Source: Streptomyces roseochromogenus subsp. oscitans DS 12.976 (lineage in GTDB: Bacteria > Actinomycetota > Actinomycetes > Streptomycetales > Streptomycetaceae). Taken from it: 64,000 bases of DNA. Position 1 is the first letter of the stretch; every line of letters starts with the position of its first letter. The notes under the pieces are model-generated. The model was not told the DNA's origin. It saw nothing but the letters and a program-made list of their open reading frames with translations, and searched no databases. This document shows, piece by piece, positions 49,098 to 50,850 of this stretch. The position numbers and the translations under genes are program-made. Where the stretch lies: NCBI RefSeq assembly GCF_000497445.1, contig NZ_CM002285.1:8597305-8661304 (forward strand), in the 5' to 3' direction.

Positions 49098-50246
49098 TCA
49101 GCCGGTGGGCAGGGTGGGCCGGATCTGCCGCAGGAACGCGGCGTTGCCGGGGGTGGAGCGCAGCCGCTCCAGCAGCGTCTCCAGACCGGACGGTCCGCCC
49201 TCGCGGGAGCGCAGGACCCGGCGCAGACCGTGTACGGCCGTCAACTCGGCCGGGGTGAGGAGCAGCTCCTCGCGGCGGGTGCCGGTGGCGTCGAGGTCCA
49301 CGGCGGGGAAGAGACGCCGGGCGGCGGATTCCCGGTCGAGCCGCAGCTCCATGTTGCCGGTGCTCTTCAGCTCCTCGAAGTAGTAGCCGTCGGCGCGGGA
49401 TCCGGTGTCCACCAGCACGGTGGCGAGGATGGTCAGCGAGCCGCCTTCCTCGGCCTGGCGGGCGGCGCCGAAGAACCGCTTGGGGCCGAGCAGCGCGCCC
49501 GCGTCGACACCGCCGCTCAGGGTACGGCCGCCGGCGGCGGAGGCGTTGTTGTGCGCCCGGCACAGCCGGGTCAGCGAGTCCAGCAGGATCACGACGTCCT
49601 CGCCGGCCTCCACCCGGCGCTTGGCCCGCTCGACGACGAGCTCGGCGAGGGCGATGTGTTCCTTGGGCGTCCGGTCGAAGGTGGAGGCGTACACCTCGCC
49701 GCGCACGGAGCGGCGCATCTCGGTTACTTCCTCGGGGCGTTCGTCCAGTAGCAGGACCATCAGCCGGCACTCCGGGTGGTTGCCGGCCACGGCGGCGGCG
49801 AGCTGCTGGAGCAGCACCGTCTTGCCGCTCTTCGGCGGGGCCACGATGAGTCCGCGCTGGCCCTTGCCGACCGGCGCGAGGAGGTCGGTGACGCGCCCGG
49901 CCAATCCGGACGCGGGGTGTTCGAGGCGGATGCGGTCGTGCGGGTGAAGCGAGGTGAGGTCGCGGAAGTGGCGCCGGCCCCGGAGGTCCGCCGGGTCGCG
50001 TCCGTCGACGCCCGTGACCTCGATCAGGGCGCGTTGAGCGCCCCGGACGCCCTCGACGAGGTCGCCCTTGCGCAGACCGTGGCGCCGGATCAGCGCCGCC
50101 GGGACCTGCGGATCGATGGGGGAGGGCAGCAGACTCGCGGCCCGCAGCTGCCCCTTCCCGTGCGCGTCGATGTCGAGGACACCCGTGACGAGCCGGGCGG
50201 CCGGGGCCTGCTGGACCACGGGAGGGTGTTCGAGTGTGGTGGTCAT
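49098..50246 (-). CDS. rho: Transcription termination factor Rho, compact second form
   Basis: A 382-residue ATP-dependent RNA translocase. The ATPase core is intact: Walker A APPKSGKT (136-143), LLLDERPEEVTEM, Walker B VVILLDSLTRL, GGVDAGALLGPKRFFGAAR, and the arginine finger in TGTRREELLL. It lacks the N-terminal helical domain and the long arginine-rich insert of the usual actinobacterial Rho. In the RNA-binding domain the RNP1 motif GFGFLR is replaced by GKGQLR, losing both stacking phenylalanines. It is probably a paralogue of the essential Rho, with altered RNA loading. A 230-nt pyrimidine-rich leader precedes the ATG at 50246. Confidence 0.93.
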   Translation of the reverse strand: MTTTLEHPPVVQQAPAARLVTGVLDIDAHGKGQLRAASLLPSPIDPQVPAALIRRHGLRKGDLVEGVRGAQRALIEVTGVDGRDPADLRGRRHFRDLTSLHPHDRIRLEHPASGLAGRVTDLLAPVGKGQRGLIVAPPKSGKTVLLQQLAAAVAGNHPECRLMVLLLDERPEEVTEMRRSVRGEVYASTFDRTPKEHIALAELVVERAKRRVEAGEDVVILLDSLTRLCRAHNNASAAGGRTLSGGVDAGALLGPKRFFGAARQAEEGGSLTILATVLVDTGSRADGYYFEELKSTGNMELRLDRESAARRLFPAVDLDATGTRREELLLTPAELTAVHGLRRVLRSREGGPSGLETLLERLRSTPGNAAFLRQIRPTLPTG

Positions 50247-50478
50247 GGTGGGAAGTCCTTTCAAGGACGGAAGAAGTGCGGGGGAAGGGGGGAGAGCCGT
50301 GAGCGGGAGGCGGTGACAGCTGCCTCCGGGCGGCGGGAACGGCACCTCGGGTACGGCGGAAACGCCCTGGTCACGAGGTGGTGCAGAGAAGAAGCCCGGG
50401 CCGGTCTGGAGCCTCGGCCGAGGGGCTGATGGAGAAGAAGCGGCACCGGTGTCCGTACGACGGGACACGCACACGCGC
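50247..50478 (-). promoter_or_regulatory. Long pyrimidine-rich leader of the compact rho gene
   Basis: About 230 nt separate the predicted transcription start from the rho ATG. The RNA contains C/U-rich runs (CCGCTTCTTCTCC, CTTCTTCTCTGC, CTCTCCCCCCTTCCCCCGCA), resembling Rho loading sites. This suggests autogenous attenuation, as known for other rho genes. The stretch is also open in the rho frame back to 50474 (MCVSRRTDTG), so an N-terminal extension or leader peptide is possible. Confidence 0.55.
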
Positions 50479-50485
50479 TGATCGC

Positions 50486-50513
50486 ACTATACCCGTGCGG
50501 CTGTCTCGGTCAA
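50486..50513 (-). promoter_or_regulatory. Vegetative promoter of the compact rho gene
   Basis: On the minus strand TTGACC (50513-50508), a 16-bp spacer and TATAGT (50491-50486) form a near-consensus -35/-10 pair, unusually strong for this genome. Transcription would start near 50479. Confidence 0.75.
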
Positions 50514-50850
50514 CATGAAGCCGTCCGCGTCTGTTCCCGCCCCGCGGTGGCCCCGGTGCACTGTCCGGCGGGATCGAGGGGGTGGCCGTACTCGGGCACG
50601 AGGCGCCGACGACCGCTGACGGCGAGGACCGCCGGCGGTTGCGGTTCCTGGTCGGCTGGGCCTTCACGCCTCGCCGCGCGGAGCAACTACGGCTCTGGGC
50701 CGAGCAGTTGACTGAGATTTTGCCGGACGGCCTGGCCCGCGCAGCGGCCGCCGGAATCGGAGTCGCGACCTGCGGCGGCACTTCGCGCTGCCCCTGCCGA
50801 CGGGGGCATCTGCGAACTCCTCGGCGTGGGCGTCGAGATCATCCTGCAGA
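50514..50850. other. Region without supportable genes
   Basis: Only short overlapping frames. A plus-strand stretch reads GWAFTPRRAEQLRLWAEQL, which may be decayed coding sequence, but no family is recognised. Confidence 0.4.

Follow-up and report, generated by a model that had tools for sequence, protein, structure and literature searches.

The rho2 locus

The window, a stretch of 64,000 nucleotides from Streptomyces roseochromogenus subsp. oscitans DS 12.976, carries on its minus strand a compact Rho paralogue (gene rho2, product Rho2) preceded by a promoter and a long leader (Table 1). Proteins of this kind usually bear the database name transcription termination factor Rho. A PF07497 profile search of the genome gave two matches, rho2 and a full-length main Rho (G000:C1:2984459, an 885-codon open frame), so that the gene is a second Rho and not the only one, as the earlier note on this DNA had held. 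Identity of the two products is 57% over the readable core of the main Rho. The Rho RNA-binding domain (PF07497) is recognised in Rho2 at 39.6 bits (cut-off 27). The N-terminal domain is absent, again as had been noted; the OB domain begins at about residue 18–21. A structure model (mean pLDDT 64.3), used solely for recognising the OB domain and the Rho fold, displays both.

Table 1. Features of the rho2 locus in window coordinates (A2 and A3 are the leader alignments described under Leader RNA)
Feature	Position	Strand	Basis or remark
rho2, compact Rho paralogue	49098..50246	minus	382 aa; ATG at 50246
Codon of Ser295 (= E. coli 337)	49362..49364	minus	alignment; coordinates from the ATG
RNP1-equivalent GKGQLR, residues 30–35	50142..50159	minus	translation aligned to E. 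coli Rho; coordinates from the ATG
5' leader, C-rich, G-poor, about 233 nt	50247..50480	minus	predicted start about 50479
H5, small GUCC..GGAC hairpin around the ribosome-binding site GAAAGGA (50262–50256)	50255..50268	minus	predicted in A2 and A3
C/U-rich segment between H4 and H5, candidate Rho-loading stretch	50269..50296	minus	leader composition
H4, outer GCCG/CGGC pairs conserved, inner stem variable	50296..50334	minus	outer pairs predicted in A2
H3, possible hairpin GCACCACCTCG...CGAGGTGC	50342..50384	minus	by eye only
H1, 5'-terminal hairpin, two stems and a 7-nt/3-nt internal loop (NYGUGUA / CCG)	50443..50478	minus	covariation
-10 TATAGT	50486..50491	minus	16-nt spacing from TTGACC
-35 TTGACC	50508..50513	minus	also read in L004, L005, L019; not conserved across the alignment

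A longer reading frame from GTG 50474 (458 aa) was considered and rejected. It is interrupted by an in-frame stop ahead of the start codon in 52 of 101 orthologous leaders and is therefore not a conserved extension, which supports ATG 50246. The 76 residues upstream of this ATG have no Pfam match. An origin of the gene from phages or plasmids was likewise rejected: 15 phage records match Rho2, none at 60% identity or more, and of 83 matching plasmid records only one reaches that level, a rho 69% identical to Rho2 on a 616-kb plasmid of S. angustmyceticus (NZ_CP104318.1:100066-101157).

Motor and RNA-binding residues of Rho2

Rho2 sequences (147 rows) were aligned with 21 Streptomyces main Rho and E. 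coli Rho; 145 rows remained after removal of the duplicates L113 and L179. Positions in the comparisons follow E. coli Rho numbering. Catalytic residues 184, 185, 210–212, 265, 266, 269 and 366 are invariant in 145/145, and Walker A and B, the catalytic Glu and the arginine finger are all present, in agreement with the intact ATPase motifs described earlier for the window's protein. Lys181 is replaced by Arg in 23 of the 145.

The primary-site pocket of E. coli Rho is taken here to consist of F62, F64, Y80, E108, R109 and Y110. Rho2 does not belong among the proteins that have this pocket. An aromatic residue is found in 0/145 Rho2 at position 62, in 29 at 64, in 6 at 80 and in 0 at 110; 116 have none at any of the four positions (8 of the 145 are gapped at one of them). 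The loop 102–107 is fully gapped in 133/145. Replacement is patterned, with Lys (87) or His (25) prevailing at 62 and Gln (95) at 80. GKGQLR, pointed out in the earlier note as a degenerate RNP1, is thus confirmed, and close homologues deviate likewise instead of having the normal motif. Six rows from another family of the order (L164–L169) retain F64 and Y80, so that erosion of the pocket looks stepwise.

The motor domain has marks of its own. Cys271 and Leu335 occur in 145/145 Rho2, position 327 is Ala (142) or Gly (3), and aromatic residues stand at 330 (144/145) and 331 (145/145); Streptomyces main Rho (n = 21) has Gly271, Phe335 and Met327. A Rho that translocates but loads RNA differently, as was proposed for this gene, would fit a motor left intact in a clade that has lost the primary pocket and the N-terminal domain. 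The overall interpretation of the earlier note is in this way supported in part.

Bicyclomycin pocket

Positions 337 and 210 are assumed to line the bicyclomycin pocket, 266 is presumably a further pocket position, and G337S is taken to be a bicyclomycin-resistance substitution in E. coli Rho. Position 337 is Ser in 110/145 Rho2, the window's protein included, and Gly in 35/145. Ser337 occurs in 0/21 Streptomyces main Rho and in 0/16 main Rho of other actinobacteria; all 37 have Gly. Leu320 is retained in 145/145 Rho2, and the L320M-type resistance change is absent. The statement that the inhibitor-contact residues seem conserved is therefore partly wrong, residue 295 (337) of the window's protein being Ser versus Gly in the main Rho. 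A resistance role had been called weak on the strength of that statement; yet position 337 is changed. Rho2-like proteins of another family (L260–L263) keep Gly337 and have D210G in 4/4 (GERPEEV). Gly stands at 266 in 2/16 main Rho of other actinobacteria (rows L264–L279).

Clade, range and neighbourhood

A tree was built from 81 rows, of which 51 are Rho2. Rho2 forms one side of a branch with support 99, separate from main Rho; L260–L263 branch beside it (support 88). The gene is present in at least 107/199 genomes of the genus, a lower bound, with listed rho2 matches reaching E of about 4.5e-120. All 107 have Cys271 and Leu335. Carriers include S. canus, S. lincolnensis, S. coeruleorubidus, S. 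hygroscopicus and S. griseofuscus. Beyond the genus, at least 6/14 genomes from another family of the order carry rho2, as does a further genus of the same family. Among the matches listed, no rho2 appears in 92/199 genomes, so that Rho2 alone cannot account for the genus-wide insensitivity to bicyclomycin. A decayed rho2 is seen at L334 (G160:C50:31079-35122), where a remnant of the leader hairpin is closely followed, within the 4 kb read, by a C-terminal fragment matching residues 340–382 only.

Among 89 loci with a rho2 frame the commonest neighbours, named from reading of the sequences and not from a family scan, are a D-Ala-D-Ala carboxypeptidase-like gene downstream (38) and methyltransferase-like (40) and PadR-like (20) genes upstream. 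These are replaced elsewhere, and no conserved operon partner was found over the 89 loci. The leader stays with rho2 while the neighbours differ between subclades.

Promoter and leader composition

TTGACC-16-TATAGT at 50513–50486 answers to the near-consensus promoter of the earlier note. An extended -10 (TGnTAnnnT) occupies the aligned position in 97/107 loci, with the H1 hairpin directly behind it; the window's own GGGTATAGT is outside the 97. The start of the transcript is predicted from the -10 box. The 237-nt stretch 50480–50244 contains C 104, G 59, U 48 and A 26. Over the whole leader the median C-minus-G is 0.156 in 101 leaders and 0.004 in 293 intergenic controls, which are stretches before frames from a simple script and not mapped UTRs. 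Whole leaders exceed the 95th percentile of the controls in 82/101 cases; for the best 78-nt stretch only 0.41 of the leaders are above the control line. Composition supports a Rho-loading-like leader, as had been suggested, over the whole length more than in the best stretch, and the C-richness could serve other ends. A leader peptide was rejected: by a simple pattern, a frame with a ribosome-binding site is found in 12/101 leaders, differing in position and sequence. Folding of the window's leader is no more favourable than that of shuffled versions (z -0.90).

Leader RNA

Leaders of 107 loci were aligned. L015, L091, L094, L096, L097 and L104 were excluded (motif absent at the place, or poor alignment), leaving 101, an exclusion that favours the H1 pairing figures given below. 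Alignment A1 holds 70 of the 101 (near-copies and some irregular leaders left out), A2 holds 44 and the divergent set A3 21.

With no structure supplied, RNAalifold returns from the 70 sequences both of the H1 stems drawn by hand, GCAC/GUGC and (Y)GCCC/GGGC(R), with NYGUGUA facing CCG; in longer leader alignments it adds pairs within the internal loop. In the 101 leaders 96.8% of 880 cells are paired, double changes occur in 6/9 pairs, and 38 double-change cells stand against 4.5 in shuffles (0/500 as high), a control inflated by relatedness. When the partner is slid by 1–3 columns pairing falls to 23–62%, a control in which any structure derived from the consensus is likely to do better than its slid versions; neither figure is a probability. 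The 70-row set gives 97.5% paired, 6/9 pairs and 32 double-change cells versus 3.9.

H3 is not predicted by RNAalifold in A2 or A3 and has no comparative support. At H4 a GGGGCG/CGCCCC stem is predicted in A3. H5 is nearly invariant and therefore without covariation support.

A covariance model of H1 gave, over 199 genomes, 95 matches upstream of rho2 (95/107 rho2 genomes, median distance 237 nt) and 12 elsewhere. Matches of 34 bits or more number 87, all at rho2; the best elsewhere has 33.9 bits, the 34-bit line having been set after the scores were seen. No match at rho2 was obtained in 12/107 rho2 genomes at E 0.001 with stricter filters. One of the 12 matches elsewhere (L334) adjoins the decayed rho2, and the other 11 have no rho2 within about 2 kb; several fall in long high-GC3 frames. 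L330, L332 and L339 are weak matches in one similar, repeated and apparently coding sequence, which gives rise to false hits. A general regulatory role of H1 was rejected; the next match in the own genome after rho2 has only E 0.09. In G101:C1:1032333-1035134 (gene in L015) H1 precedes rho2 by 1656 nt, which looks like an insertion into the leader.

Further loci were searched with the same model. H1 was found in 65/67 of them (67 used out of 80, 13 being judged genome repeats or incomplete; some may share species with training rows). Outside Streptomyces, one genus also gave a match (E 6.5e-7). It gave no convincing score in a more distant family, several loci of which have by eye a GCA- or GCG-headed stretch after the -10. 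A 5'-proximal CGCAC/GUGCG hairpin is seen by eye in L260, L261 and L263. Rfam (4227 covariance models) gave only sub-threshold matches in window positions 49900–50800 (best E 0.11), and six orthologous loci gave no match with an E of 0.5 or below.

Proposed role and alternatives

The preferred reading, held tentatively and at somewhat less than an even chance, is that Rho2 serves as a backup Rho: Rho-dependent termination within its own leader would keep it off, and a fall in Rho activity would release it. Rho2 would be an auxiliary motor whose sequence-specific loading on RNA has been lost; the bicyclomycin pocket is altered in most members. During ordinary growth the rho2 mRNA would start at H1 and run into the C-rich leader, where the main Rho would load and stop transcription ahead of rho2. 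A drop in main Rho activity (drug, stress, mutation) would let polymerase read through, and the Rho2 then made would supply a low-specificity, bicyclomycin-tolerant Rho function. The reading is supported by the invariant catalytic residues, a leader that travels with the gene, the covariation and specificity of H1, the C-minus-G excess, Ser337 and D210G. It is supported also by published facts, as given in the accessible parts of the sources: bicyclomycin is inactive on Streptomyces, yet the Rho ATPase of S. lividans is sensitive in vitro (PMC6934819), S. lividans can do without rho (PMC5379054), and a Rho duplicate of S. lividans has changes at bicyclomycin and RNA sites (PMC8269248, citing D'Heygere 2013). 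Against it stand the 35/145 Rho2 with Gly337, the 92/199 genomes without a listed rho2, the 12/107 without an H1 match at rho2, the unexceptional folding of the window's leader (z -0.90) and the presence of rho2, among the matches listed, in only one (G064) of the three genomes that have bicyclomycin-cluster-like loci. Lack of the primary site might moreover make a Rho terminate poorly.

The main rival, possible but doubtful, makes Rho2 a specialised motor under another signal. It would load outside rut sites with the help of a partner protein, or by way of an R-loop or some particular RNA, it would serve a narrow set of transcripts, and H1 would bind a protein or ligand. The patterned replacements at 62 and 80 and the clade-specific changes at 271, 335 and 327 favour such a motor, and the conserved internal loop of H1 is what a binding site would be expected to have; but no neighbour or partner gene is conserved over the 89 loci, and no particular set of transcripts is indicated. 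Antagonism is unlikely. Rho2 would then enter mixed hexamers with the main Rho, weaken primary-site binding and increase read-through. Shared interfaces are plausible from the core identity and the intact ATPase and arginine finger, but a pure poison subunit would not require the catalytic residues to be kept in every one of the 145 proteins. That the leader is a plain long 5' UTR, with rho2 simply transcribed from its promoter and H1 a stabiliser against 5'-to-3' decay rather than a switch, is judged quite unlikely: H1 does lie at the predicted 5' end and the z of -0.90 suits this explanation, but a stabiliser would not need conserved internal-loop letters, further conserved blocks or a hairpin at the ribosome-binding site.

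Self-resistance of bicyclomycin producers is very improbable as the function of rho2. CDPS genes (PF16715) are present in 68/199 genomes, and 20 of their neighbourhoods, taken mostly from weaker PF16715 matches, were read; four mutually similar genes, dioxygenases by eye, occur in three of the 20 (G165, G139, G064). The pocket change at 337 and the Ser337 Rho2 (row L100) of the presumptive producer G064 speak for this function. Against it, G165 and G139 have no Rho2 among the matches listed, so that Rho2 looks unnecessary in producers; the main Rho of G165 has the usual residues at 210, 266, 320 and 337; rho2 of G064 lies about 200 kb from the cluster; and rho2 is far commoner than bicyclomycin-cluster-like loci. 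The own genome has, outside the window, two cyclodipeptide synthase genes (G000:C1:8892097-8892747 and G000:C1:8234823-8235476); no array of four similar genes was found near the second cyclodipeptide synthase gene (L325).

Returning to the backup Rho, a bolder form of the proposal is speculative, and we would rather bet against it. The H1 leader would represent a new class of cis-acting RNA, one that senses the Rho activity of the cell, through binding of Rho2 to it or through a put-like action on polymerase, and that switches on a loading-defective, drug-tolerant Rho exactly when the main Rho fails. If this were true, H1 and rho2 would form a target-bypass circuit for a global transcription factor.

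As an RNA motif, the leader is bound up with a single gene family. A second Rho with its own RNA leader may help to explain why Streptomyces tolerates loss or poisoning of the main Rho. The published oddity, seen in the available text of the sources, is that Streptomyces is unaffected by bicyclomycin although S. lividans Rho is sensitive in vitro (PMC6934819), and that S. lividans can dispense with rho (PMC5379054); a second Rho that has a changed drug pocket and a conserved leader of its own opens it to direct test. A Rho lacking the primary RNA site would also reveal what the motor is capable of when choice of RNA is impossible.

Comparison with known systems

E. coli Rho (PDB 1PV4, 3ICE, 6XAS) is among the closest solved sequences and folds to Rho2 and shares with it the OB domain, the RecA-type motor, the catalytic residues and the arginine finger. 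Rho2 differs from it in the absence of the N-terminal domain and of most of F62, F64, Y80, E108 and Y110, and in the clade-specific changes of the motor domain at 271, 327, 330, 331 and 335.

Rho duplicates of actinobacteria are another close system. A Rho duplicate of this kind is already published for S. lividans (PMC8269248); from the accessible part of that source, which gives it changed bicyclomycin and RNA sites as in Rho2, it very likely belongs to the Rho2 family. The same part makes no mention of a leader RNA, a clade signature or a range. No mention of a second rho was found in the available portions of PMC8079986, PMC4681348 and PMC6742748, and literature searches, worded for leaders only in part, returned no description of a leader RNA of the Streptomyces rho duplicate. 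The new part is thus the leader RNA; its conserved, structured 5' hairpin H1 had escaped the earlier note.

M. tuberculosis Rho resembles Rho2 in coming from an actinobacterium and in having an altered drug pocket; according to the part of PMC8828861 available it is bicyclomycin-resistant through Leu-to-Met at E. coli position 320, a replacement given there for various Corynebacteriales. In contrast, Rho2 keeps Leu320 and is changed at 337, and M. tuberculosis Rho is not a compact paralogue.

The rho gene of E. coli is autoregulated and has a long leader for which Rho-dependent control has been proposed. A long leader is common to both genes; that of rho2 differs in having no conserved peptide and in possessing a covarying 5'-terminal hairpin. 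The put RNAs of phage HK022 are bulged hairpins at the start of the transcript that act in cis against termination. H1 resembles them in being a bulged hairpin at the predicted 5' end.
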